Assembly (NCBI RefSeq): GCF_003605635.1 | Contig: NZ_QMDW01000014.1 | Location: forward strand, 1-59,743 | Source: Halonotius pteroides | Lineage (GTDB): Archaea; Halobacteriota; Halobacteria; Halobacteriales; Haloferacaceae | Length of the DNA: 59,743 nt | Direction: 5' to 3' | In this document: positions 3,855 through 18,798 of the stretch, piece after piece | Position numbering within the stretch: position 1 is the first letter of the stretch | Layout: every line of letters begins with the position of its first letter | Made by a program: the position numbers and the translations under genes | Notes under the pieces: generated by a model | Databases searched by the model: none | What the model saw: only the letters and a program-made list of their open reading frames with translations | Told to the model about the DNA's origin: nothing

Positions 3855-3950
3855 TGCGTCCGGTCGTCTCGTCCGGAGAGGTCGCGTATTAATAAGACTA
3901 TCAACTAAAATAATAATAACTATCAATGAGAACCTCTATTATAGCAATAC
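3855..3950. promoter_or_regulatory. Divergent AT-rich promoter with direct repeats, FAD oxidoreductase / COG0523 operon
   Basis: The region separates two divergent genes and becomes very AT-rich toward the GTPase start. ACTATCAA occurs twice in the same orientation, at 3897-3904 and 3919-3926, 22 bp apart (two helical turns). An AACTAAAATAAT stretch about 36-47 bp before ATG 3951 could act as TATA box. The spaced repeats look like a regulator site, but no regulator is identified. Confidence 0.45.
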
Positions 3951-5231
3951 ATGCCACAGGACACAACCCCCGTGACGGTGCTGTCAGGCACACTCGGTGC
4001 CGGGAAAACAACCACACTCAACCACATCCTACAGGAGAGCGGCGACCGCGAGCTGGCCGTGTTGGTCAACGATATGGGTGAGGTCAACGTCGACGCCGAG
4101 TTGGTCGCCGAATCCTCCGATATCTCGGCCGAGGATGAGGAGCTAATCGAACTCGATGACGGCTGTATCTGCTGTGAACTTCGTGGCGACCTGCTGGACG
4201 CCATCGGTGAACTCACCCACGACCAGACGTTCGATGCGATCATCGTCGAATCGACCGGCGTCGCCGAACCGCTGCCCGTCGCTCAGACGCTCACGCTTGG
4301 GTTTGACCAGTCGGATCTTGACCCGACGGAGTTCTACGAAGAGACCGGAATCGAACCACTCGAAGGCTGTCACATGGATACCGCCGTGACGGTCGTCGAC
4401 GCCCATCAGTTCCAGACGGCGATGGAATCCGAGGAACTACTTGACGACGACGGCACCGAAAAACACCTCGGCAACCTGCTGGTCGAGCAGGTCGAGTTCT
4501 GCGACGTGCTGTTGCTCAACAAGTGTGATCTGGTCGATGAGCAGACCGTAGAGGAGATCGAGGAACTCGTCACGACGCTCCAGCCGCGGGCGGAAATCAT
4601 CCGAACGACCCACGGGAGGGTCGACAGCGAGCAGATCGTCGACACCGGCCGTTTCGATTTCGCGGACGCAAGCCAGTCGGCCGGCTGGATGCAGGAACTC
4701 CAAGAGCCCCACGCATCAGCCGAGGAGGAACACGGCGTGACCTCGTTCGTCTTCGAGGCGCGACGCCCGTTCCACCCTGAGCGATTCGCCGAACTGCTCG
4801 ACGGGTTCCCTGATAGCGTAGTTCGCTCAAAGGGCCATTTCTGGCTGGCGGGCCGCGAGGAGATGGCGATCATGCTCAACGTTGCCGGGCAGTCGGTGCG
4901 GATTGCTCCCGCTGGCAACTGGGTGGCGTCGCTCCCACCCGAAGAGCGCGAGCAGCAGTTGGAAGCGGTGCCCGGTTTAGAGGAGATTTGGGACGAGAAG
5001 TGGGGCGACCGCGGCACCCAACTCGTGTTGATCGGCACCGAGATGGATCACAACGCGCTCCGGAGTCGACTCGACGAGTGTCTCCTCACCGAGATCGAGA
5101 TGGACGCCGAGTGGTCGGCCTTCGAAGATCGGTTCCCGCGGTTTGACCCACCCAAGGAGGCTGAAGCAAGCGACGACCAGAACCCTGCGGCCGACCCCGA
5201 CAAACAGGAAGAGATCGGCCTTGCTGACTAA
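3951..5231 (+). CDS. COG0523-family (CobW/ZNG1-like) metal-chaperone GTPase
   Basis: Encodes a 426-residue P-loop GTPase of the CobW/COG0523 family, whose members deliver metals (often zinc) to client proteins. Motifs are Walker A GTLGAGKT (residues 13-20), the metal-binding CICC (72-75), VESTGVAEP (about 100-108) and the guanine motif NKCD (about 177-180). A CobW_C domain follows, with RRPFHPERF and GDRGTQLVLIG. It heads an operon with a DUF7511-like protein, a small unknown and a uS14 paralogue. That company resembles bacterial Zur-controlled zinc-starvation operons. It is closely similar to the gene at 11424-12641. The exact client is unknown. Confidence 0.93.
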   Translation: MPQDTTPVTVLSGTLGAGKTTTLNHILQESGDRELAVLVNDMGEVNVDAELVAESSDISAEDEELIELDDGCICCELRGDLLDAIGELTHDQTFDAIIVESTGVAEPLPVAQTLTLGFDQSDLDPTEFYEETGIEPLEGCHMDTAVTVVDAHQFQTAMESEELLDDDGTEKHLGNLLVEQVEFCDVLLLNKCDLVDEQTVEEIEELVTTLQPRAEIIRTTHGRVDSEQIVDTGRFDFADASQSAGWMQELQEPHASAEEEHGVTSFVFEARRPFHPERFAELLDGFPDSVVRSKGHFWLAGREEMAIMLNVAGQSVRIAPAGNWVASLPPEEREQQLEAVPGLEEIWDEKWGDRGTQLVLIGTEMDHNALRSRLDECLLTEIEMDAEWSAFEDRFPRFDPPKEAEASDDQNPAADPDKQEEIGLAD

Positions 5232-5241
5232 CACACCACCC

Positions 5242-5436
5242 GTGACTGCGCACAACCTGCCACCACACGCAACCGACGATGGCGAACCGACGAGACAGTG
5301 TCACACGATCATCGAACCGCGCGACGACGCTGCCGATCTGATAACCGTGTACTCGATAGCCCCGGAGGATTCGAAGCTGACGGCGTGGCTGTCGGCGACC
5401 GCAAACAGCTATGAGCGACTGGAGGAGATGCGATGA
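5242..5436 (+). CDS. DUF7511-like small haloarchaeal protein
   Basis: Encodes about 64 residues from GTG 5242 (a TTG at 5221 inside the previous gene is an alternative). The segment [17 protein letters not shown] followed by a Ser-Tyr-x-x-Leu-x-x-Met-Arg end matches my recollection of the haloarchaeal DUF7511 family, which has no known function. It starts 10 bases after the COG0523 stop and its own stop overlaps the next gene by four bases. A second DUF7511-like gene lies inside the znu operon (8465-8668), tying the family to metal supply here. Confidence 0.65.
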
Positions 5437-5684
5437 CAAACCCATTTCAGCGTGCCGTGACACACAGCGTTCCACGACCCAAGCGCGTGGCGGCAATCGA
5501 GACGCTGACCGAGGCCAACCGAACGACCGATCTGGCGGTGCTGGTTCAAACCAGTGGTCTTCCAGGCGGGCTTCGGCGACAGGCCGTCGATGGCCTGATC
5601 TCGTGTGGAGCCACCGACCTGCTCGAAGAACTGGCCGACGACCGCTCGGTCGCCCCCGAACTCAGCAAAAAGGCACAACGATGA
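5433..5684 (+). CDS. Small helical protein of unknown function in the zinc-linked operon
   Basis: Encodes 83 residues, predicted almost wholly helical, with short repeats ([20 protein letters not shown] and [20 protein letters not shown]) reminiscent of one or two HEAT-like helical pairs. I do not recognise a family. It overlaps its neighbours by four bases on each side (ATGA junctions), so it is translated with the DUF7511-like protein and the uS14 paralogue. A protein-binding scaffold is conceivable but unsupported. Confidence 0.6.
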
Positions 5685-5851
5685 CCGACAACAGCGACAC
5701 CGAAGAGGTCGACGGCGAACCGGCCGGACAGACACGCGTCTGCCGGGCGACGGGCCGTGAACAGGGGCTGGTCGGGAAGTACGACATCTGGCTGTGCCGA
5801 CAGGCGTTTCGCGAGATGGCCCCGGCTATGGGATTCGAAAAACACGAATGA
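5681..5851 (+). CDS. Paralogue of ribosomal protein uS14 with a degraded zinc site (C-minus type)
   Basis: Encodes 56 residues. The core [17 protein letters not shown] matches the haloarchaeal type-Z uS14, which normally carries four zinc cysteines as C-x-x-C and C-x-x-C. Here the first pair reads CRAT and the second CRQA, so the second and fourth cysteines are lost (Thr and Ala). In bacteria, zinc-free paralogues of ribosomal proteins replace the zinc forms under zinc starvation and are co-encoded with COG0523 GTPases; this gene ends just such an operon. ATG 5681 overlaps the upstream stop. Replacement of the main uS14 is inferred, not shown. Confidence 0.88.
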
Positions 5852-6008: not shown

Positions 6009-6320
6009 ATGACGATGATTGATGCCAACGAACTGCTGCCAGCCGAACGCATCCGACAGGCTGTTGTTGCCGGCGACGTGACACAGCTTCACCGCGGGGG
6101 TCAACACGCCGCGGAGGGCGATCAGTTCACCATCGACGATATGCTGTTCGAGGTGACGACCGTTCGCGAAGAGCAGCTGGGAGACCTGACGGACGAAGAC
6201 GCACAGGCCGAGGGCTCGGAGAACCTTGCAGCATACAGGAAGCGTATCGAACGAACCCATGACATCACGTGGGATGAGACGGATACGACGGTGCGTCACG
6301 AGTTCGAACGGGTCGATTGA
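6009..6320 (+). CDS. ASCH-domain protein
   Basis: Encodes about 103 residues from ATG 6009; ATG 5994 and ATG 6015 are alternatives. The pattern LLPAERIRQAVVAGDVTQLH..G.Q.A..GD.F.I....F.V..V followed by LGDLTDEDAQAEG fits the ASCH (ASC-1 homology) fold, a PUA-like domain thought to bind RNA in translation-related contexts. It lies alone between the zinc-linked operons with AT-rich promoters on both sides. Its target is unknown. Its location beside a ribosomal paralogue makes a translation role under metal stress a reasonable guess. Confidence 0.72.
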   Translation: MTMIDANELLPAERIRQAVVAGDVTQLHRGGQHAAEGDQFTIDDMLFEVTTVREEQLGDLTDEDAQAEGSENLAAYRKRIERTHDITWDETDTTVRHEFERVD

Positions 6321-6363
6321 GAAGGGCGAATCAGTTTGAGCAACGACCTACGTCTATCCGGCC

Positions 6364-6396
6364 AGTATTAATTAGACTCAGATAGAAATTAATACT
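6364..6396. promoter_or_regulatory. Perfect 10-bp inverted repeat upstream of the zinc-finger gene
   Basis: AGTATTAATT (6364-6373) and AATTAATACT (6387-6396) form a perfect inverted repeat with a 13-bp spacer, so arm centres are 23 bp apart. It lies 70-102 bp before the small zinc-finger gene and 44 bp after the ASCH gene. The arms are too AT-rich and the spacer too long for a strong terminator, so a dimeric regulator site is the better reading. Confidence 0.45.
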
Positions 6397-6465
6397 CGCA
6401 CATAAGTTCAGCCCCCCTATTCTTAATAACACTTTTTATGCTATCTCTCATGAGTTAATATTGCA

Positions 6466-6618
6466 ATGGCATACTCATGCACCAGCTGCGATGCACAGTT
6501 CGACGCCGCCGTCGGCGTTACCCAACACGTTGCGCTGCATCACAACACGTGTGCCGTCTGTGACGAGAGCTTCGAGACGGCCGACGGGCTGCGAGACCAC
6601 ACCCACGAAACGCATTAG
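6466..6618 (+). CDS. 50-residue tandem C2H2 zinc-finger protein
   Basis: Translation from ATG 6466 to TAG 6616-6618 gives 50 residues carrying two C2H2-like fingers. The first is CTSC followed by QHVALHH (C-x2-C-x12-H-x4-H, Cys5/Cys8). The second is CAVC followed by DHTHETH near the C-terminus. A TATA-like CTTTTTATG at 6432-6440, about 30 bp before ATG, fits a leaderless haloarchaeal transcript. The protein sits in the middle of the zinc island, so it may be a zinc sensor, a regulator or a zinc reservoir; none is proven. It may have been missed by annotation because it is so short. Confidence 0.75.
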   Translation: MAYSCTSCDAQFDAAVGVTQHVALHHNTCAVCDESFETADGLRDHTHETH

Positions 6619-6651
6619 ACGCGGTCCAGACATCGGTTGGGCCGATCCCCG

Positions 6652-7716
6652 CTATTTTCGCTCGTCGCCACCGTCAGCGGACACCTGCTTCGGACTGCGA
6701 CGCCGTCGGTACCGATACAGCATCGCCGACAGCAACAGTGGCACCTCTCGGCGCACTCGCCTGCCAGCGACGACACCGAGATAGACGAGAAGGGCTGTCA
6801 CAACGATCGAGCCACCAGCGGCGATGCCAAACTGGTAGGCGACCGTGACGCCGATGACTGTCGCCAGCTGGCCGGCGATGATCGCCAGCCAGATCGACTG
6901 TTTGAAACTCCGGGCGACCGGTGCCGCCGCGGCGACCGGGATGACGAGCATCGCCGCCACGAGGATGACACCCATGATCTGCATCGCGCTGACGACAACC
7001 CCAGCGGTCAGGACGACGAGCAATCGCTTGTAGTGCCGGACGTTGAACCGGGCGGCCCGCGCCGCCGGGGCGTCGAACGTGACGTATACGAGCGGTCGGT
7101 AGGCAAGGGTGACGACGGCACCGACGATGAGGCTCATCAGGATCAACAGCCCGATATCCGTTTTCGAGACCGTCGCCAGACTGCCGAAGAGGTAGGCGTT
7201 GATGCCGACAGCGATGCCGCCACCGGTGGCCGTGATCAGGATACTGCCGACCGCGAATCCGCCGGTCAGCACCATCGCCAGCGACGTATCCCCGTATGTG
7301 TCTGCGTGGTCAATGAGAAGTTCGACGAGCAGCGCGGTCACGATCGCGACGACAAAGGCGGTGATGATCGGCGACACCGACAGCGAGAACACCGAGTTGA
7401 GAAACAGACCGAGGGCCACGCCAGCGAAGGCCGTATGCGCGAGCGTATCGCTCAGCATCGATAGCTCGCGGTGGACGAGAAACGTGCCCACAACCGGGCC
7501 GATGATCGCGATACAGATCGCCGCGAGATACGCCCGTTGCATATAGGCGTACCCGAGCATATCGATCCCGGTGAGTTCACTCATCGCTGTCAACAGAGCA
7601 CCGTAGACCGCTTCGAGCAGCCAGTCAAACCCATCGGCGAGCGGCGTCGCCGATCTGCCCGCTGCAGCCAGCTGTGTGAGACGGCCAGTCGGCGGTGTGA
7701 GCAGTGTCGTGATCAT
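6652..7716 (-). CDS. znuB: ZnuB-like zinc/manganese ABC transporter permease
   Basis: Encodes a 354-residue polytopic protein of the ABC-3 (ZnuB/MntB) permease family. It has an extended N-terminus of about 60 residues and then 8-9 membrane helices. The cytoplasmic coupling region around HRELSMLSDTLAHTAFAGVA is typical of the family. It is the last gene of znuA-DUF7511-znuC-znuB, and its start overlaps znuC by four bases. Zinc rather than manganese is suggested by the three COG0523 GTPases and the His-rich ZnuA. It ends 33 bp from the convergent zinc-finger gene. Confidence 0.92.
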   Translation of the reverse strand: MITTLLTPPTGRLTQLAAAGRSATPLADGFDWLLEAVYGALLTAMSELTGIDMLGYAYMQRAYLAAICIAIIGPVVGTFLVHRELSMLSDTLAHTAFAGVALGLFLNSVFSLSVSPIITAFVVAIVTALLVELLIDHADTYGDTSLAMVLTGGFAVGSILITATGGGIAVGINAYLFGSLATVSKTDIGLLILMSLIVGAVVTLAYRPLVYVTFDAPAARAARFNVRHYKRLLVVLTAGVVVSAMQIMGVILVAAMLVIPVAAAAPVARSFKQSIWLAIIAGQLATVIGVTVAYQFGIAAGGSIVVTALLVYLGVVAGRRVRREVPLLLSAMLYRYRRRRSPKQVSADGGDERK

Positions 7717-8468
7717 GCGTTCTGTCGGATGAGTCGTTGCTCCGTCCCGTAGGCGTCGGCCAGCGCGTCTGTGGCGAGCAGGTCTGCGGAGTCGCCATGG
7801 AAGTAGAGCTGCGTGTCGATACAGGCGACCTCGGTTGCGTATCGCGTGACCGCACCGAGATCGTGTTCGATCAGACAGATGGTCAGCCCGCTGTCGTGGA
7901 GCGTCGACAGCAATTCGTAGAATGACTCGACCGATTCAGCGTCGATGCCGACCGTTGGCTCGTCAAGGGCGAGAAGGTCGGCCTCGGCAGCCAGCGCGCG
8001 GGCGATGAACACCCGCTGTCGCTGGCCCCCCGAGAGGGTGCTGATTCGTCGATTGGTGATATCACCCACATCGACGGCTTCGATCGCCTCCTCGATTGCC
8101 GCTGTGTCTGTCCGGGAAAATCGGCCAACGGTGCGGTGTGGATACCGGCCCATCTCGACGACCTCACGCACTGTCAGCGGCATCTGCTCCGGGACGGCCG
8201 CCGCATCCTGTGGCACGTAGCCGATGCGCGTCCCGTCACCGAACTCGGTGGCCTGCTCGCCGAACAGCCGCACCTCGCCCCAATCGGGAGCCCGGAGTCC
8301 CAACATGAGGTCCAGCAGCGTACTTTTGCCGCTTCCGTTGGGGCCGACGATCCCGAGAAAGTCCCCGGACTCGACAGTCAGTGAGACACCCTCGACAACC
8401 GGCGTGGCGGTGTAGCCGAACCGGACGTGATCGAGGACGATCGGTGGCTGGTCGACCGTCGCTGTCAT
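7713..8468 (-). CDS. znuC: ZnuC-like zinc ABC transporter ATPase
   Basis: Encodes a 251-residue ABC ATPase that drives the ZnuB permease. Motifs are Walker A GPNGSGKST (residues 42-50), a Q-loop at VPQD (85-88), the signature LSGGQRQR (145-152), Walker B LLALDEP (165-171) and the switch His in IEHD. Its stop overlaps the znuB start and its start overlaps the DUF7511-like gene, each by four bases. Alternative substrates such as manganese cannot be excluded from the ATPase alone. Confidence 0.93.
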   Translation of the reverse strand: MTATVDQPPIVLDHVRFGYTATPVVEGVSLTVESGDFLGIVGPNGSGKSTLLDLMLGLRAPDWGEVRLFGEQATEFGDGTRIGYVPQDAAAVPEQMPLTVREVVEMGRYPHRTVGRFSRTDTAAIEEAIEAVDVGDITNRRISTLSGGQRQRVFIARALAAEADLLALDEPTVGIDAESVESFYELLSTLHDSGLTICLIEHDLGAVTRYATEVACIDTQLYFHGDSADLLATDALADAYGTEQRLIRQNA

Positions 8469-8668
8469 CGTGTGGTCTCCAGTCGAACAAATGCATCGCC
8501 GGTGGCGGTGAGCGTTCGCTCGGATCGTGCCGGCGCGGCCACATCAGGTGGGTAGATCGTGCACACTGCTGTCTCGGCGCGGCCGTGGACGATTCCGAGC
8601 AGCGTCGCTCGTTGGCGGGAGCGATTGCACTGCGGTCGATTCGACACTGTCGGTTCTGTCTCCGTCAT
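8465..8668 (-). CDS. DUF7511-like small protein inside the znu operon
   Basis: Encodes 67 residues. The C-terminal half, VCTIYPPDVAAPARSERTL ending in Phe-Val-Arg-Leu-Glu, resembles the DUF7511-like protein at 5242-5436 in length, strand pattern and the position of an acidic/aromatic C-terminus. It overlaps znuA and znuC by four bases each, so it is made in step with the transporter. The N-terminal CNRSRQR and mid-chain cysteine could touch metal, but no motif proves it. Function unknown. Confidence 0.62.
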   Translation of the reverse strand: MTETEPTVSNRPQCNRSRQRATLLGIVHGRAETAVCTIYPPDVAAPARSERTLTATGDAFVRLETTR

Positions 8669-9900
8669 GCATCCAGCGCCTGCTGGAGCGTGGCCAGATT
8701 GACGTTCTCCATGACATCGATGTAGCCCCAGCCCCTGTCCGCCCAGTCCTGTGTCTGGCCGGCGACTGCTGTCAGCGGGAGCTTCTCGGTGGCATCGGTC
8801 TCTTCGACCAGTTGATCGGCGGCCGTCTGATCTTCCAGTGGGTCAGCAAGCACATACTGGAGATCATGCTCCTCGATGAGTGACTGGGCCTGGGCGATAT
8901 CCTTTGGCGTCGGGCGGTCGTCCGGGGAAATGTTCGTCAGGGTCTCGACGCGGAACCCGTACCGGGATTCGAGATACTGGAAGGCGTTGTGGCCAGCCAC
9001 GAACACCACATCGCTGTCTGCGTCGCCGAGTGTGTCTTCAAACGACTGGTCAAGCTGGTCAAGTTGTGCCCGGTAGTTGTCTGCGTTTGTGGCGTATGTA
9101 TCGGCGTTGTCGCTGTCGATATCGACGAGTTCACTCCGGACGTTGGTGACAGCCTGTTTCAGCCGCACCGGATCGAGCCAGACGTGTGGATCCTCCGCGC
9201 CGTGGTCGTGGCCATGGCCGCCGTCATGGGTCTCCGCACCGTGTTCTTCCTCTGAATGCTCCTCAGAGTGTTCTTCGTCTGAGTGCTCATCACCATGGTC
9301 ACTCTCCTCAGAATGTTCTTCTTCTGAGTGTTCTTCCTCCGAATGCTCCTCAGAATGTTCTTCTTCTGAGTGTTCTTCCTCCGAATGCTCCTCAGAATGT
9401 TCTTCTTCTGAGTGTTCTTCCTCCGAATGCTCCTCAGAATGTTCCTCTTCTGAGTGCTCTTCCCCTGAGTGGTCTTCTTCGGAGTGGCCATCGTGACCAC
9501 CGAGCTTCTCGATGCCGTCGGCGATGTTAACTGCGGTCACCGGCGCGTCGTCGTCGCGCATGCTGGCCACCATATCGTCGGCCCACGGCTGGAAGCCATC
9601 CATGTACACGAACACGTCACTGTCGATGACCGTCGCCTGAGTATCGCCGCTGGGTTCCCACCCATGACCGTGTGAGCCGAGCGGGACAAGTGTCTCAACA
9701 GCCTCGCTGTCTCCGACCACCGCCTCGGTGATATCGCCGAAAACGTGGAATGGGGCTGTGGCGTCCACAGCAGACGCCTCATCTGCTTCGGCACCCGCTG
9801 TGCTTTGCTCGGTGTCCGAGCCGGTACAGCCGGCCAGTGATGCCGCTGTTGCCGCCCCGATACTCGTCGTCAGGAGTCGCCGTCGTGTGTATGATGTCAT
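8665..9900 (-). CDS. znuA: ZnuA-like zinc-binding lipoprotein with long His/Glu repeat loop
   Basis: Encodes 411 residues. The N-terminus has a twin-arginine TRRRLL and a lipobox ending LAGC (Cys25), so it is probably exported folded by Tat and lipid-anchored. SHGHGWEPS (residues 76-84) and DPHVWLDP (237-244) carry metal-ligand histidines of the A-I/TroA cluster, and AGHNAFQ holds another. Between them, residues 136-234 form a loop of EEHSE-type units with dozens of His and Glu, far longer than usual ZnuA loops. It probably concentrates zinc at the cell surface. First gene of the znu operon. Confidence 0.92.
   Translation of the reverse strand: MTSYTRRRLLTTSIGAATAASLAGCTGSDTEQSTAGAEADEASAVDATAPFHVFGDITEAVVGDSEAVETLVPLGSHGHGWEPSGDTQATVIDSDVFVYMDGFQPWADDMVASMRDDDAPVTAVNIADGIEKLGGHDGHSEEDHSGEEHSEEEHSEEHSEEEHSEEEHSEEHSEEEHSEEEHSEEHSEEEHSEEEHSEESDHGDEHSDEEHSEEHSEEEHGAETHDGGHGHDHGAEDPHVWLDPVRLKQAVTNVRSELVDIDSDNADTYATNADNYRAQLDQLDQSFEDTLGDADSDVVFVAGHNAFQYLESRYGFRVETLTNISPDDRPTPKDIAQAQSLIEEHDLQYVLADPLEDQTAADQLVEETDATEKLPLTAVAGQTQDWADRGWGYIDVMENVNLATLQQALDA
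9304..9471. repeat. 42-bp tandem repeat encoding the ZnuA His/Glu loop
   Basis: A 42-bp unit is repeated four times head to tail: 9304-9345, 9346-9387, 9388-9429 and a divergent copy at 9430-9471. The first three look identical by eye; the fourth has several changes. Each unit adds 14 residues of alternating Glu-Glu-His-Ser pattern. Near-identical units suggest recent expansion or ongoing slippage, so repeat number may vary among strains. Confidence 0.9.
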
Positions 9901-10065
9901 GTATTACTAATTTAGATCATTTGTTTATTAAAAATTGTGATTTCAAAATTGATCTTAATAACTTGGAGCTGGAGAGTGTAATCATAATAATTAAAAACTG
10001 AGAACCCATCAAACGTAGGGTAGCGGGCTTAAAACGGAGGTATATGATTAGCCCGCGTTTCGGAT
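9901..10065. promoter_or_regulatory. znuA promoter and spacer after the COG0523 pair
   Basis: On the minus strand, TTTTTAATAAAC lies about 22-33 bp before the znuA ATG and is a good TATA candidate for a leaderless transcript. The start-proximal TCTAAATTAGTAATAC resembles TCTAAATTAATAAC before the 11424-12641 gene, a possible shared operator. The distal half (about 9960-10065) is the 3' flank of the COG0523 gene; no clear terminator hairpin is seen. Confidence 0.45.
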
Positions 10066-11424
10066 TTATCGTTGATCGATAACGAGTCGCTGATCGGTTG
10101 GCGGGTGCGGATCATCAAGCTGCCCCGGGAACGGGTTTTCAAACCGACCCCAGTTGCCGTCAGCCTCCGGCTCATCTACAAGGCAGTCGTCGAGACCAGC
10201 CCTGATGGCTGGCTCGTCGATCGTTGTTCCGATGAACACGATGGCCGTTTCACGATCACCCCATCGGTCGTGCCACGAGAGGTCCGACCGCGATTTGCGC
10301 GCCGCAGCCTGCCGGAAGTCAGGGAGACTGGCGATCCACCGGCCGTTGACGCTGACATGAATCTGACTCCCCGCCAGGCTAAGATCAAGCGCGAACTGCT
10401 CGCGGCCGGCGACCCAGCAGTGGCCCTTGGCTCGGATGACCGTCTCAGGGATCGATTCGAGCCACACGCGAAACCGCTCGGGGTGGAGCGGTCGTCGACG
10501 CTCGTAGACGAACGAATCGACACCGAACTCCTCGGGCGGGTGGAGATGGCCATGATCGTGCTCCTCCTCTTCGTCGTGATCGTGGTCGTTGTGCTCCTCG
10601 CTGTGGTTGTGCTCCCCGTTGTGGTCGTGAAGTTCCTCGCTGTGATCGTCGTGTTCGTGGCTTTCATGACCGTTCTGGTCGACGGGAGCTTCGGCATCGT
10701 TCCCGTGTTGACGGTCAGTAAGTATCTGCTTCCACCGTGCCGCGTTGTTTGTGGCATCTTTGTCGAACCGCCCTGTGTTCAGGAGTCGCTCCGGATCGAC
10801 CGCGCTGTCGGTCGTCCGGACGATCTTAACACCAGGACGGAACGTCTCGATGATCTCTTCGACGGCCGCACGTTCGTTTGCCGACACAAGGTCACACTTG
10901 TTGAGTACTACCAGATCGGCGAACTCAACCTGTTCGGCTAACAGCTCCGAGAGTGGCCGGGCATCCTCCTCCGATGAGGCAAGCGGTTCACGCTCAACAA
11001 AGGCCCGGTAGAATGCGGCGGCATCGACAACTGCAACGACCGAATCGAGATCGTAGAGCGCGGCGATCGACGACGAGATGAACCGTCCAGCTATCGGAGC
11101 CGGATCACTGATTCCAGAGGCTTCGATAACAAGGTGGTCAACATCTGTCCCCATCGCAATTCGACGGAGTTCCTGATCCAATTCGTTCTGTAACCCACAG
11201 CAGATACAGCCATTGGAAAGTTCGGTGATCCCCTCGTCCATCGAGAGTGCTGAGCCGGTTTCGATAAGATCGGCATCAACGTTGATCTCGCCGACATCGT
11301 TGACCAACACGGCGATATCATCGGCGTCATCACCGACCGCTAACAGGTGATTAACAAGTGTTGTTTTCCCGGCTCCGAGTCCACCACTGAGGACGGTCAC
11401 CGGGAGTTGGTCGTCGATAGCCAT
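10066..11424 (-). CDS. COG0523-family metal-chaperone GTPase with His-rich loop
   Basis: Encodes 452 residues from ATG 11424, which shares one base with the upstream stop (TGATG); a TTG three bases earlier is less likely. Motifs are Walker A GGLGAGKT (residues 14-21), CICC (73-76), IEASGISDP (100-108) and NKCD (175-178). Residues about 240-296 are packed with His, Asp and Glu (HDHNGEHNHSEEH), a metal-storage or metal-sensing loop seen in some zinc-linked COG0523 proteins. The C-terminal domain keeps RRPLHPERF and RETAIVFIG. It is cotranscribed with the gene upstream and diverges from it clearly in sequence. Confidence 0.93.
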   Translation of the reverse strand: MAIDDQLPVTVLSGGLGAGKTTLVNHLLAVGDDADDIAVLVNDVGEINVDADLIETGSALSMDEGITELSNGCICCGLQNELDQELRRIAMGTDVDHLVIEASGISDPAPIAGRFISSSIAALYDLDSVVAVVDAAAFYRAFVEREPLASSEEDARPLSELLAEQVEFADLVVLNKCDLVSANERAAVEEIIETFRPGVKIVRTTDSAVDPERLLNTGRFDKDATNNAARWKQILTDRQHGNDAEAPVDQNGHESHEHDDHSEELHDHNGEHNHSEEHNDHDHDEEEEHDHGHLHPPEEFGVDSFVYERRRPLHPERFRVWLESIPETVIRAKGHCWVAGREQFALDLSLAGSQIHVSVNGRWIASLPDFRQAAARKSRSDLSWHDRWGDRETAIVFIGTTIDEPAIRAGLDDCLVDEPEADGNWGRFENPFPGQLDDPHPPTDQRLVIDQR

Positions 11425-12641
11425 CAATCGTCGGCTAAGGCGAGTTCCCGCTGGTCGTCCGCACTGAACGGATCTGGATAGTCTTCCCAGTTAGCGTTCA
11501 TCTCGGTGTCGGTGAGCACACAGTCCCCCAGTTGGTCGACCAACAGTTCCTCATCATACTCTCGGCCGATGAACACCAGCTGGATGCCACGATCACCCCA
11601 CTGATCGTCCCAATCATCGTCCAGACCGGGACGAGCAGCCAAGTATCGCTCCTGTTGGGCTTTCGGAAGCGTAGCGATCCACCGACCGTTTGGGCCGGCT
11701 CGAACCGACTGACCAGCCTTGTCAAGGCCCATCGCTATATCCTCACGGCCGGCCGACCAGAAGAATCCTTTCGCCCGAATGATGCCCGCTGGGAGGTCAG
11801 CCAGCAGGTCGGCGATCCGTTCGGGGTGGAACGGTCGGTCGGATGTGAATACGAACGAGCCGACGCCGTGTTCCTCGGCGGCGGCCTCGTGGTGGTGGCC
11901 GCCCTGCAGCTCCTGTTTCCACCCGGCGGACTGGCTCGCACGATCGAAGTCGAAACGGCCGGTGTCGAGAATCTGTTCGGGGGCGACCGCGCCGTGTTCG
12001 GCGCGAATGATCTCGGCGCGGGGCTGCAGGGCACGGAGCACGTCTTCGATCTCGTTAAGTTCGTCGTCCGGCACGAGGTCGCACTTGTTCAACACCAGTA
12101 CATCACAGAACTCGATCTGATCCATCAGGGCCGCCTCGGGGACACGGTTGCCCTCGGGGTCGACCTCGTCGTCGGTGAGTGCCTCGCCGGAATCGAACGC
12201 CTGCCAGAAGCTGTGGGCGTCGACGACGCTGACCATCGTATCGAGTTCGTAGATACCGGTCGGATCGAAGGAAGCATCCTCGAAGCCGCGCGCGAACGTC
12301 TGTGCAACCGGGATCGGTTCGCTGATGCCCGAGGACTCGACAAGGAGATACTCGAAATCCCGCTGGTCGGCCAGTTGCCCGACCTCGTCGAGCATATCGC
12401 CACGGAGGCGACAGCAGATACAGCCGTTCGAGAGCTCGATGACCTCCTCGTCGGCCTGTGAGAGTGCTGACTCTCGTTCGACGAGGTCGGCATCGATGTT
12501 GACCTCGCCCATGTCGTTGACGACGACAGCGGCGTTCAGTTCCTGCTCTGTGTTCAATACGTGGTTGAGCGTCGTTGTTTTGCCGGCACCGAGACTTCCA
12601 CTTAGTACTGTTACCGGAATCGGTGAGTTGTTAGCTGCCAT
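11424..12641 (-). CDS. COG0523-family metal-chaperone GTPase (third copy)
   Basis: Encodes 405 residues. Motifs are Walker A GSLGAGKT (residues 15-22), CICC (74-77), VESSGISEP (about 105-113) and NKCD. The stretch RFDFDRASQSAGWKQELQ and the C-terminal DRPFHPERI closely parallel the protein at 3951-5231, so the two are recent paralogues. A short GGHHHEAAAEEHG loop is a reduced His-rich insert. It is first in a two-gene operon with the His-rich COG0523 gene. Division of labour among the three GTPases is not evident from sequence. Confidence 0.93.
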   Translation of the reverse strand: MAANNSPIPVTVLSGSLGAGKTTTLNHVLNTEQELNAAVVVNDMGEVNIDADLVERESALSQADEEVIELSNGCICCRLRGDMLDEVGQLADQRDFEYLLVESSGISEPIPVAQTFARGFEDASFDPTGIYELDTMVSVVDAHSFWQAFDSGEALTDDEVDPEGNRVPEAALMDQIEFCDVLVLNKCDLVPDDELNEIEDVLRALQPRAEIIRAEHGAVAPEQILDTGRFDFDRASQSAGWKQELQGGHHHEAAAEEHGVGSFVFTSDRPFHPERIADLLADLPAGIIRAKGFFWSAGREDIAMGLDKAGQSVRAGPNGRWIATLPKAQQERYLAARPGLDDDWDDQWGDRGIQLVFIGREYDEELLVDQLGDCVLTDTEMNANWEDYPDPFSADDQRELALADD

Positions 12642-12873
12642 CGCTATGTTATTAATTTAGAAGTATAAAATACTAACTCTTGCTATCTAAAGCTAAAATA
12701 TTAGCATAAATATATGTATATCAATCTGCTAACTAAATTGTAGTCACAGCTATTGATAGAACCTCCCCACCTCGTGGGCTCGCCGATCTCGTAACTAAAA
12801 CCTGATGCAGTAGCGGGTAATCCATAGACCTTCTGTCTCTCGCACTTCGTTCCTGTCAGCTTGTGTAACTACC
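12642..12873. promoter_or_regulatory. Promoter of the COG0523 pair with palindrome
   Basis: AGTATAAAATACT at 12662-12674 contains the likely TATA box for the gene starting at 12641, about 20-33 bp upstream. A near-palindrome GCTAAAATATTAGC lies at 12692-12705, directly behind it, a good position for an operator or TFB/TBP-competing repressor. TTGATAG near 12753-12759 is the reverse complement of the CTATCAA repeat at 3898-3926. The part beyond 12760 is GC-richer 3' flank of the next gene. Confidence 0.45.
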
Positions 12874-14340: not shown

Positions 14341-17300
14341 ATGCAAACAGCTGACCACAACCCGGTCGCAGTTCGGTGTGTTGGTTCCGACAGCGGCACC
14401 GTCCGGAATATCCTTCGTGACCCGATAGCGGCGGTCTTTGGGTCGGCCGCGCTTGGTGACGACGCCAGCGGGTCGCCGTCGACCGGCTGGGACGGCGCTG
14501 CGACGCGGCTGATCGCCTGCACCGCGACAGCCGTCGCGAGCGACGTCGTTCCGACGACCGACCTGCAGGCCGGCGAGTGGGTGCTCGTGGTCGACACCGG
14601 ATCGCCGGCCGATATCGATCCGGCGGCACTCCCTGTTCAGGCGAGTTACATTCACGCCGAGAGCCCGCCGGCCCAGATTCGCTCACAGCTTCGCACAATC
14701 GCGGCTGCCACGGGGGTCGCCACGACCACACCGCCAGCCGAGCGATCGGTGCCGCCCACGCCGGCCGACGTTGCTGGAATCGAACTGCCAATTCCGGTTG
14801 TCGTCTCCGCGGTCGACACCCCGAGGGTCGTTGCGGTCAACAGCGCAGCGGCGTCGTTGTTCGACCAGCCACGCTCCGCGCTCGTCGGGTGTTCGCCGAC
14901 CGAGCTCCGCGTCGAATCGGCTACTGACACCGACGAGACGCTCCTTGATGCCGCGGTCGAAACCGGCCAGATACAGCGGCCGGCGACCGGCGATGGCGAG
15001 GCGGTGACCATCGCCGCCGGTGATGGGTCGTCGCTACCGGTCGATTACAACGCGGTGACGACCACGATCAATGGGCGCGAGCATCTGATCGAGACGTTCG
15101 AGGACGCAACCGACCGGCTCGCCCGGGAGACAGACCGTCAGCGACAGGCCGTGGCGATGGATACCGCCCTGACCGGCATCTCGATTCTCTCGCCGTCGTC
15201 GGCGTACACCTACATGAACGAGGCCCACGCCGCGATCTTCGACCGCGAGCCGGCCGACCTCCTCGGCGAGACGTGGCAGGCGATCTACGACGACGACCAA
15301 CAGGAATATATCGAATCCGAGGTGCTGCCAGTGGTCGAGACAACCGGCTCGTGGGACGGTGAACTTACCGGTCAGCGGGCCGATGGCTCACCCGTCGAAC
15401 AGCATGTTTCGCTGACCGCGCTTCCCGACGGCGGGCTCGTCTGTGTCAACCGCGATATCACCGAACGCAAACACCGGGAGCAAGAACTCCGCGAACTCAC
15501 TGAGCGACTCAACCTTGCCGTTGAAGGGGCAAATCTTGGCATCTGGGACTGGGATATGACCACGAATCAGGTGGAGTTCAACGAGCAGTGGGCCGAGATG
15601 CTCGGGCTGTCACTCGAAGATATCGAACCGAGCTTGGACGCATGGGAACAGCGGGTGCATCCCGAGGATATCGATGCGGTGACCGCGGCACTCGACGCTC
15701 ACATTGCGGGTGACACTGACTATTACGACACCGAACACAGGATGCAGACTGCGGCTGGAGGGTGGAAATGGGTTCGTGACATCGGGCGGGTCGTTGAGCG
15801 AGACGATACCGGCGAGCCGCGTCGGGCTGTCGGCATCCACCTCGATATCGACGACCGCAAGACGTACGAACAGCAGCTAAAAGCAGGGCGGGATATGTTC
15901 ACACAGGGCCCCGCAGTCGTCTTCAAATGGCGAGACGCCGAAGGGTGGCCGGTCGAGTACGTCTCTGAGAATATCGAAGATGTGCTCGGCTACACACCCG
16001 ACCAGTTCCAGTCCGGAGCGATGGCCTACGCCGATATCATTCACGATCAGGACTACGAGCGTGTATCGGAGTTAGTCGCCGAACACAGCAGCGGGGAGAT
16101 CGACGAGTTCAGTCATGATCCGTATCGGGTTGTTACCCCTGACGGAACCGTTCGGTGGGTGCTTGATTACACGAAAAACATCAGACAGGACGGCGAGATC
16201 ACCCACCGACTGGGGTACGTGGTCGACATTACCGAGCGCAAAGAGCGCGAGCGGCAGCTTCAGCAGATACGCGAGACGGTGTCGACGTTCATGCTCGCCG
16301 AGGATCGGACGGCGGTCATCGAAACGGCGGTCGAAGCGATCACGGAGACGCTCTCGCTCCCGGTTGTTGCCTACTACCGCCGCGATGACGACAGATTGCG
16401 GCCGGAATCGGTGTCGACAGCGGCAACGACAGTCCTCGACGATCAGCCGGCGTTCGAGGCCGGTGAGGGGCTCGTCTGGACCGCCGTCGAGACGGGTGTA
16501 TCGGCGTACTACCCGGATGTGACCGAGCGTGACGGCTGTTATAACCCCGACACGGTGCTCCGATCGGAGCTTCACCTCCCCGTGGATGACGATGGCGTCT
16601 TCATCGTCGCCTCCACGACGCCGGACGACATCACCGAAACGGAACGCGATCTCCTCGGTATTCTTATCGACCATGTTGAGACGGCACTGACACTGCGTGA
16701 CCGCACCACCCAGCTACAGCAGGCCCGCGAGACGGCGGAAGCCGAACGACAGCAGCTCCGTGACGTGATCAATGCTGTGCCACAGCTCATCTGTGCAACG
16801 GATCAGACGGGCGAGCTTCTCTTCGCCAACGCGGCACTCGCAGACGCCTACGATACGACTGTCGCCGATCTTGAGGGAAGCACAGACGCCGATATCGCTG
16901 TCGCCGACCCGGAGCAGATGGCGGCCGGTGAGACCGACACAGCGTCGATCGAGCCCGGCGAGTCGGTCCGCACCTGGGGAACCGCCCTGACCAACGTTGC
17001 GGGCGACGAGCGTCTCTTCGAGACGTGGACCGTCGGGTTTGAGGCGGTCGATATCGACGAGACTGCCGTGCTCTCCGTCTCGAACGACGTGACAGAGCTG
17101 GAGGAGGCAACAGCCGCGGTCGAACGGCTCCAGCGGCTGAAAGCCCACTACAAGATCGGTGACGAACTCCTGCAGACCAGAACACCCGACGAGGTGTGTG
17201 CCATCGGCTCACAGGCGATTGTCGATGGACTCCCGGTGGCAGCCGTGAGCGTCTACATGTGGGACGAGGCCGAGACGGTTCTCGCACACAAGTCGAGTGC

Positions 17301-18798
17301 GCCTGCGGCCGAGTCCCCGCATCCAGCCCGGATCACGATCGATGACGACGACCGCTGGCGAGCGTTTACCGAGGGAGCGGTGACCGTGTCGGATTCGGGT
17401 GTCGTGTCGGTTCCGATCGGGTCGGATGGGCTGCTCGTCGCCACGTTCACCGCCGACAGCCCGTCGACCGAGGAAACCGAGTTTCTCGAATCGGCGGCCG
17501 ATACGCTGGCGGTCGGTCTCCGGCAGGCCCGACAGAAGGCCTCGATCGACGAGTTCAAAGCTGAAACCGAGGCACTTACCACCGATCTCTCCCGCCAGCG
17601 CACGCTGCTGGACAGCTATATCTCGGCGATCGAGACCGTGATGGGCGGTGAATCCCAGGTGGAACTGTTCGAGACACTCACCGACTTCTGTGAGACCAAC
17701 TGGGCGTACGGGTGGGTTGGCACCTACCAGCCACAGGTGGAGACGGTGACACCGACGGTCGTCAGCTCCGCCGGCGGCCCGGCGACAACCGTCGCCAGCG
17801 AGGGCGAAACCGGCCGCAGGCCGCCGATGCTGACGGCCGCCGTCGACCGCGAACCGGTCTATACCGAAAACACGCGATCGACACGGCAGCAGTCGAGCTG
17901 GGGGCGTCAGCTGCTGACCTACGGCTATCAGTCTGCTGTGGCCCTGCCGATCTGTGATGGTGGGGCCCTCCACGGCGTTCTGGAGGTGACAGCCACCGCC
18001 ACGGAGGGGTTCGACACACAGGCCAGAGAGATGCTGGGTGTGCTCTGTCGGGCCGTGGCGATCCGACTCGATCAACTCGATCGTGCCGAACCGATCGGAG
18101 CGAATCGGGAGGCGGTTGTCTTCGAACTGCTGTTCGGCGCGGAGCGACCCGTCTTCCCGTCACTGCCCGACGACCTGACGGTCGAGGTGCGCACGATCGA
18201 GACCATCGACAGCGACACCCGCAGACTTACCCTGCAGGTTGCGGCGACTACCGCCGACCAGTTTGAACGGTATGTCGACAAAACGCCGGGGCTTTCCGGG
18301 TTCGAGGTCGCAACCGACCAAGACAACACTGACAGTGTTCTCGCCGCGGTTCGACTCACACTCACCGCCCGAGCACCAACCCAGCAGCTCTTCGAGGTGT
18401 TGAATCAACATGCCGCCGACATCGTGACCCTCCACAGCGACCCGACTAGTGAGGTCGTCCGAATCGAGAGTCATCGGCCGGGGGTGGTTGGAGATATCGC
18501 CGACAGACTACGGGAGACACTCGACTGCCAACTCCTCTCGAAACGAACCACAGCACCGACCGATCTGCTCACCCAGCGAACATCGATCGCCGACGCGCTC
18601 ACCGACCGGCAGCGCGAACTGTTCCGGACGGCATACAGAGAGGGCTACTACGAGCAGCCAAAGGGGATCAGTGGTGACGACCTCGCCGCACTCTTCGATA
18701 TCTCGCAGTCGACCGTCCACGAACACCTACGCGCAGCCGAACAACGGGTCGCAACGGTTCTTTTTGATGACGGTTCGGCCTGGCCAGATAACGCCTGA
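14341..18798 (+). CDS. Large multi-PAS/GAF sensor with bacterio-opsin-activator-type HTH
   Basis: Encodes 1485 residues. An N-terminal region of about 130 residues may be a degenerate receiver. It is followed by PAS-like modules at about 150-260, 265-375 (ends VNRDITERK), 390-505, 515-640 (YVVDITERK) and 800-920, with GAF-like modules at about 650-785, 935-1070 and 1110-1240. The C-terminus (about 1415-1470) carries LTDRQRELFRTAYREGYYE and ISQSTVHEHLRAAEQR, the HTH_10 domain of haloarchaeal bacterio-opsin activators. It has no kinase domain, so signal sensing and DNA binding are in one chain. Bat itself is much shorter; a role in bop control 10 kb away is possible but unproven. Confidence 0.87.
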   Translation: MQTADHNPVAVRCVGSDSGTVRNILRDPIAAVFGSAALGDDASGSPSTGWDGAATRLIACTATAVASDVVPTTDLQAGEWVLVVDTGSPADIDPAALPVQASYIHAESPPAQIRSQLRTIAAATGVATTTPPAERSVPPTPADVAGIELPIPVVVSAVDTPRVVAVNSAAASLFDQPRSALVGCSPTELRVESATDTDETLLDAAVETGQIQRPATGDGEAVTIAAGDGSSLPVDYNAVTTTINGREHLIETFEDATDRLARETDRQRQAVAMDTALTGISILSPSSAYTYMNEAHAAIFDREPADLLGETWQAIYDDDQQEYIESEVLPVVETTGSWDGELTGQRADGSPVEQHVSLTALPDGGLVCVNRDITERKHREQELRELTERLNLAVEGANLGIWDWDMTTNQVEFNEQWAEMLGLSLEDIEPSLDAWEQRVHPEDIDAVTAALDAHIAGDTDYYDTEHRMQTAAGGWKWVRDIGRVVERDDTGEPRRAVGIHLDIDDRKTYEQQLKAGRDMFTQGPAVVFKWRDAEGWPVEYVSENIEDVLGYTPDQFQSGAMAYADIIHDQDYERVSELVAEHSSGEIDEFSHDPYRVVTPDGTVRWVLDYTKNIRQDGEITHRLGYVVDITERKERERQLQQIRETVSTFMLAEDRTAVIETAVEAITETLSLPVVAYYRRDDDRLRPESVSTAATTVLDDQPAFEAGEGLVWTAVETGVSAYYPDVTERDGCYNPDTVLRSELHLPVDDDGVFIVASTTPDDITETERDLLGILIDHVETALTLRDRTTQLQQARETAEAERQQLRDVINAVPQLICATDQTGELLFANAALADAYDTTVADLEGSTDADIAVADPEQMAAGETDTASIEPGESVRTWGTALTNVAGDERLFETWTVGFEAVDIDETAVLSVSNDVTELEEATAAVERLQRLKAHYKIGDELLQTRTPDEVCAIGSQAIVDGLPVAAVSVYMWDEAETVLAHKSSAPAAESPHPARITIDDDDRWRAFTEGAVTVSDSGVVSVPIGSDGLLVATFTADSPSTEETEFLESAADTLAVGLRQARQKASIDEFKAETEALTTDLSRQRTLLDSYISAIETVMGGESQVELFETLTDFCETNWAYGWVGTYQPQVETVTPTVVSSAGGPATTVASEGETGRRPPMLTAAVDREPVYTENTRSTRQQSSWGRQLLTYGYQSAVALPICDGGALHGVLEVTATATEGFDTQAREMLGVLCRAVAIRLDQLDRAEPIGANREAVVFELLFGAERPVFPSLPDDLTVEVRTIETIDSDTRRLTLQVAATTADQFERYVDKTPGLSGFEVATDQDNTDSVLAAVRLTLTARAPTQQLFEVLNQHAADIVTLHSDPTSEVVRIESHRPGVVGDIADRLRETLDCQLLSKRTTAPTDLLTQRTSIADALTDRQRELFRTAYREGYYEQPKGISGDDLAALFDISQSTVHEHLRAAEQRVATVLFDDGSAWPDNA

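Follow-up and report, generated by a model that had tools for sequence, protein, structure and literature searches.

At positions 6466..6618 on the plus strand of the window, by which we mean the whole 59,743-nucleotide stretch of Halonotius pteroides DNA that was analysed, lies a gene for a 50-residue protein with two zinc-finger motifs, designated here as ZnF (MAYSCTSCDAQFDAAVGVTQHVALHHNTCAVCDESFETADGLRDHTHETH). Both fingers have the ligand spacing CX2CX12HX4H, and the product matches the Pfam profiles zf-C2H2_4 (2e-7), zf-C2H2 (4e-6) and zf-C2H2_6 (4e-6), each above its cut-off, which by ligand pattern (CX2CX12HX3-5H) and curated profile cut-off places it in the zf-C2H2 clan. The first-pass annotation had spoken of a 50-residue tandem C2H2 protein hidden between zinc operons, and the reading frame, the two motifs and the profile matches all bear out the description of the protein. 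The word "hidden" stands only in part, since plasmid-borne relatives carry the NCBI name 'C2H2-type zinc finger protein' or are listed in public records as 'hypothetical protein'. ZnF is already known to annotation, and none of the papers found is a study of it. Profile matches to fingers in the PDB go down to 1.7e-9, and ZnF has the CX2CX12HX3-5H spacing and the conserved F and L core positions of classical tandem C2H2 proteins (ZBTB17, ZIF268 and others in the PDB). AlphaFold2 models built from 14 and 36 sequences were of low confidence (mean pLDDT 58.7 and 56.0), and Foldseek with the low-confidence model gave C2H2 fingers as the best matches, none of them significant. A minus-strand open reading frame at 6475-6633, which overlaps ZnF, was set aside as an antisense frame that arises mechanically opposite a GC-rich gene.

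The surrounding genes form a zinc island. They include a CbiM-type transporter gene (57-551) truncated by the contig start, an FAD/NAD oxidoreductase gene and a COG0523 (CobW-type) GTPase at 3951..5231 on the plus strand (Pfam cobW 2.9e-46, CobW_C 4.3e-25). Adjoining the GTPase is a DUF7511 protein (5218-5436), and three more plus-strand genes lie between it and ZnF: o83 (5433..5684), a conserved 83-residue protein with no Pfam match; a paralogue of ribosomal protein S14 (5681..5851; Pfam and NCBIfam S14); and o103 (6009..6320), a conserved 103-residue protein with no family match that is present in other zinc islands too. Where the ordinary four-cysteine S14 of the same genome (G000:C82:123612-123770) has ECRRC...LCRQC, the paralogue has VCRAT...LCRQA; two of the four zinc cysteines are gone, making this a classical zinc-sparing swap. 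Downstream of ZnF, on the minus strand, are a ZnuB-type permease (6652..7716; Pfam ABC-3 2.5e-57), a ZnuC-type ATPase (7713..8468; ABC_tran 1.9e-31) and a ZnuA zinc-binding protein with a His-rich loop (8665..9900; ZnuA 6.2e-51), with a second DUF7511 protein (8465-8668) between znuC and znuA. Two further COG0523 genes follow on the minus strand (10066-11427 and 11424-12641; Pfam cobW and CobW_C, together 10066..12641). ZnF thus does lie between zinc operons, as had been claimed, with COG0523, o83 and the zinc-free S14 upstream and znuBCA downstream on the opposite strand. Adjoining the island is a 1485-residue open reading frame of multi-PAS/GAF sensor type (14341-18798).

Bacterial Zur regulons have the same content, namely znuABC, COG0523 and a ribosomal protein paralogue that has lost its cysteines (PMC2770081), whereas the island described here has a different operator motif, an added double finger and no FUR/Zur regulator over cut-off. 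Archaea have neither Zur nor Fur (PMC2770081), and a FUR-family profile search of the window's genome gave no match over cut-off, the ZnF reading frame included. ZnF belongs with the haloarchaeal zinc-finger micro-proteins and sits in a gene set of Zur type that has no Zur. Other haloarchaeal micro-proteins are known, among them HVO_0758, HVO_2753 and further C(P)XCG proteins of Haloferax volcanii, which have fewer than 70 residues and one or two finger motifs and are, like ZnF, mostly of unknown mechanism (PMC6562870, PMC10716476, PMC11241148). Those studied are mainly of the C4 C(P)XCG type, whereas ZnF is a tandem C2H2 protein that keeps synteny with zinc islands and has a promoter like those of zinc genes. 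When 14 predicted haloarchaeal micro-fingers were assayed, five failed to bind zinc (PMC11241148).

Homologues of ZnF occur in 31 of the 170 genomes of the GTDB family, including Haloferax, Halorubrum, Haloplanus and Haloquadratum, and in 76 of the 392 genomes of the order, spread over 40 of the 95 genera sampled. This settles in the affirmative whether the gene is conserved in relatives, and all eight ligands are invariant. In an alignment of 36 diverse sequences, 15 of the 50 columns do not vary; besides the ligands these are two extra histidines, H25 and H47, together with M1, F12, Q20, F36 and L42. Either H25 or H26 could serve as ligand. Nucleotide differences over 1618 sequence pairs amount to 12377, 10200 and 32152 at codon positions 1, 2 and 3, and this third-codon-position bias in a conserved family (A1/A4) marks ZnF, on comparative sequence evidence, as a genuine gene under protein-level selection. 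The conservation, the constant start and the codon-position bias rule out a chance reading frame at 6466-6618, and a viral origin was rejected after a search of viral contigs gave no relative. At one locus in another genus (L165, genome G074), the finger gene is 98% identical to that of the window and adjoins only a 32-residue znuB remnant; this is a broken, recently transferred island.

ZnF also keeps its company across these genomes. The order COG0523-o83-ZnF-(FAD)-znuBCA is found again in several genera, and o83, present in 29 of 62 clustered loci, recurs between COG0523 and ZnF in many genera. We retrieved 60 named ZnF loci. In 43 of these a relative of znu or COG0523 lies no more than 8 kb away; the other 17 have no zinc gene within that distance, several of them being short contigs. 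Within the family, 25 genomes have a close COG0523 and all but one of them also have ZnF (24 of 25; Fisher p 6e-22), and stratifying by the four genera in which both genes are patchy gives a product of genus-wise probabilities of 2e-15, although both values are inflated by joint transfer of one island, which makes the events non-independent. Conversely, 7 of the 31 ZnF genomes have no close COG0523 (some assemblies are incomplete), and so COG0523 is no obligate partner everywhere. Together, synteny and co-occurrence with znuABC and COG0523 support a place for ZnF in the zinc-starvation regulon, and its earlier assignment to a zinc island stands.

The promoter leads to the same assignment. The regions upstream of ZnF are conserved across genera and resemble the COG0523 and znuA promoters. 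An inverted repeat at 6362..6394, AGTATTAATT-N13-AATTAATACT, is read in relatives at the same position as GTTAGTTA-N13-ATTAATAC. The core promoter (6423..6460, plus strand) consists of a half-site TTAATAAC (about 6423-6424), a TATA-like element CTTTTTATG and a degenerate half-site GAGTTAATATTG directly before the ATG. A well-placed TATA box had been pointed out before, and CTTTTTATG indeed lies about 30 nt 5' of the ATG with similar spacing kept in relatives, so that a leaderless transcript is likely. The half-sites common to the ZnF, COG0523 and znuA promoters are TAAYAAC at about -41 and GTTRTTA at about -12; their peaks are at -42 and -12 for ZnF and at -40 and -9 to -12 for COG0523. Of the nine GTTRTTA sites in the whole window, four are in zinc promoters: at 3914 before COG0523, at about 6424 before ZnF, at 9956 before znuA and at 12648, directly before the first ATG of the two further COG0523 genes.

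The evidence for the half-sites is drawn from dyad counts and from a heptamer test with dinucleotide shuffles; de novo motif discovery by EM yielded no more than a diffuse, AT-rich pattern. Counted on either strand, GTTRTTA is present in 32 of 46 ZnF promoters (shuffle mean 2.7), 23 of 31 COG0523 promoters (1.6) and 6 of 7 znuA promoters (0.4). Among control promoters it is present in 11 of 107 (shuffle mean 1.5), a set that includes some island genes and in which 8 of the 19 AT-rich promoters contain the heptamer, which makes the comparison with shuffles firmer than the contrast with controls. Since the half-sites of the ZnF promoter recur before COG0523 and znuA, a result that holds against both shuffles and controls, ZnF very probably belongs to the same haloarchaeal zinc-starvation regulon.

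What the protein does within that regulon we can only propose. We hypothesize that ZnF is a zinc-starvation-induced accessory zinc-handling protein, that is, a carrier, buffer or reporter of zinc to a protein partner, and we would give this reading a probability of about 0.45. The gene would have a promoter to itself, probably a leaderless one, with TAAYAAC upstream of the TATA element and a GTTRTTA-like site at the start codon, and a common metalloregulator probably represses the ZnF, COG0523 and znuABC promoters when zinc is plentiful. When zinc is scarce, the cell would make this compact and strongly acidic protein, which with its two predicted zinc sites would take up scarce Zn2+, perhaps from the island's own COG0523 GTPase, and then carry, buffer or report it to a protein partner. 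Elsewhere, COG0523 proteins are known to supply their targets with zinc when the metal is limiting (PMC10642216, PMC2770081), and COG0523 is the obvious candidate partner of ZnF. Our confidence in the exact mechanism is weak; zinc binding, induction by starvation, the role as carrier or client and the identity of the regulator are inferred.

A protein that holds two zinc ions is costly during starvation unless it senses the metal or hands it on, and so a regulatory role is possible for ZnF as well. It may act as an auxiliary sensor, a loosely zinc-binding finger pair that contacts the true regulator (for example one of the NikR family), the transcription machinery or a transporter. We regard this as a possible role, nearly as likely as accessory zinc hand-over, and much of what speaks for it comes from the neighbours of ZnF. 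When the neighbourhoods of the ZnF loci were clustered, ribbon-helix-helix proteins of the NikR family emerged, with matches to Pfam NikR_C and to NikR structures in the PDB (2wvd, 1e-10; 2bj1, 1e-9). The nickel ligand set of NikR is H-H-H-C. In the subgroup found near ZnF, which we call NikR-Cys, the second His of HxH is replaced by Cys, giving the ligands H77, H88, C90 and C97, a set that would be more typical of zinc. The subgroup also forms its own group by score, at least 78 bits against at most 67. NikR-Cys genes divergently adjoin ZnF in five loci (L078, L088, L102, L106 and L108) as well as in genome G160, and they occur in 23 genomes of the family, 21 of which have ZnF and only two of which do not. 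The two extra invariant histidines, H25 and H47, beside the ligands also fit a sensor, and there is an analogy in yeast, where Znf1 and Znf2 of Zap1 regulate AD2 by binding zinc and do not read DNA (PMC3142189). Set against this, the Pfam Zap1_zf1 match of ZnF is far under its cut-off (12.8 versus 27.2 bits), and 10 of the 31 ZnF genomes are without NikR-Cys.

The window's own genome has NikR-Cys at G000:C35:495-926, near a contig end, and again at locus L161 (G000:C38:20122-20553). In the sister MAG A07HN63 (L059), the counterpart of the C35 gene is followed by the CbiM gene that opens the window, and contig C35 therefore probably joins the window's left edge. Judged by ligands and neighbourhood, NikR-Cys is a better candidate for the zinc regulator than ZnF. 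It cannot be the sole regulator, as five genomes (G100, G106, G145, G153 and G162) have COG0523 and ZnF without it. We speculate that the two proteins could form a two-part zinc switch without Zur, in which a NikR fold retuned to zinc by the His-to-Cys change and a labile finger pair reporting zinc delivered by COG0523 together control haloarchaeal zinc uptake, an arrangement that we consider unlikely.

The first-pass annotation had put ZnF forward as a candidate zinc sensor or regulator that might replace Zur. In that role ZnF would itself be a zinc-responsive DNA-binding repressor of the island, bound to the half-sites when loaded with zinc. The protein has two C2H2 fingers whose ligands are always intact, the genome is without a FUR-family protein over cut-off, the island genes have half-sites in common, and a small zinc-finger protein, Brz, is a precedent in that it controls bop in Halobacterium (PMC2253796). 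The five genomes that have COG0523 and ZnF but not NikR-Cys are further cases in which ZnF could be thought to do the work, and half-site-like elements are kept in the promoters read, those of G100, G106, G145 and G153. Nevertheless, the operator is not restricted to genomes with ZnF: among genomes without the finger, 11 of about 15 zinc-type znuA genes are preceded by GTTRTTA/TAAYAAC half-sites, which shows the operator to be independent of the ZnF protein.

The features of the protein also argue against reading of DNA. In 58 distinct sequences ZnF has 0-3 K+R and 7-11 D+E per 50 residues. Halophilic proteins are generally acidic, and acidity by itself is weak evidence. At the helix positions that read bases, DNA-reading fingers are basic; ZnF carries Ala, Gly, Val, Gln, Asp or Glu there and no basic or aromatic residue. 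In addition, the linker between the fingers is not of the TGEKP type seen in classical tandem C2H2 proteins but is only two residues long (H-NT-C), the linkers of the matched PDB fingers having four more, and two such fingers could read 6-7 bp at most. ZnF therefore lacks the reading residues and the linker that characterize DNA-reading tandem C2H2 proteins, and the strong acidity, absent basic recognition residues and short linker favour protein partners over DNA. Together this renders direct repression by ZnF distinctly unlikely; the proposal of a Zur replacement is unsupported, while ZnF may act as an auxiliary sensor. The earlier annotation was right about a real gene and its association with zinc, and misplaced its emphasis on replacing Zur.

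It is very unlikely that ZnF is a passenger, a structural finger protein with a job unrelated to zinc homeostasis that travels with the island, as the loci without a nearby zinc gene and the seven genomes without a close COG0523 might suggest, because its promoter half-sites match those of the zinc genes, positions included, and L078 keeps both the half-sites and the NikR neighbour though znu and COG0523 are absent.

In Haloferax, the zinc control known so far is a small RNA, s479, acting on znuC1 mRNA (PMC8155600). The results above give haloarchaeal zinc sensing a testable picture, made up of a conserved promoter element, a micro-protein of the regulon in dozens of genera and an H-H-C-C NikR candidate. 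Should ZnF prove to be a client of COG0523, as in the preferred reading of zinc hand-over, or an auxiliary sensor, an archaeal case would join the very short list of zinc-transfer targets.

Two further observations concern the same assembly and its relatives. Contig C38 (L034/L161) carries a second zinc island, which over 6.3 kb shares 97.8% identity with Haloplanus ruber. On this identity the C38 island is likely a contamination or a recent transfer, and the second copy of ZnF that it holds was not counted as a paralogue of the genome's own. The genome also encodes two DtxR-family proteins, and control of the zinc-type znuA by a regulator of this type was rejected, as TTAGACTNNTCTAA-type palindromes precede the other znuA-like class. 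In that second class (L203-L213, L218 and L222), these upstream palindromes resemble DtxR/SirR sites, possibly for manganese.
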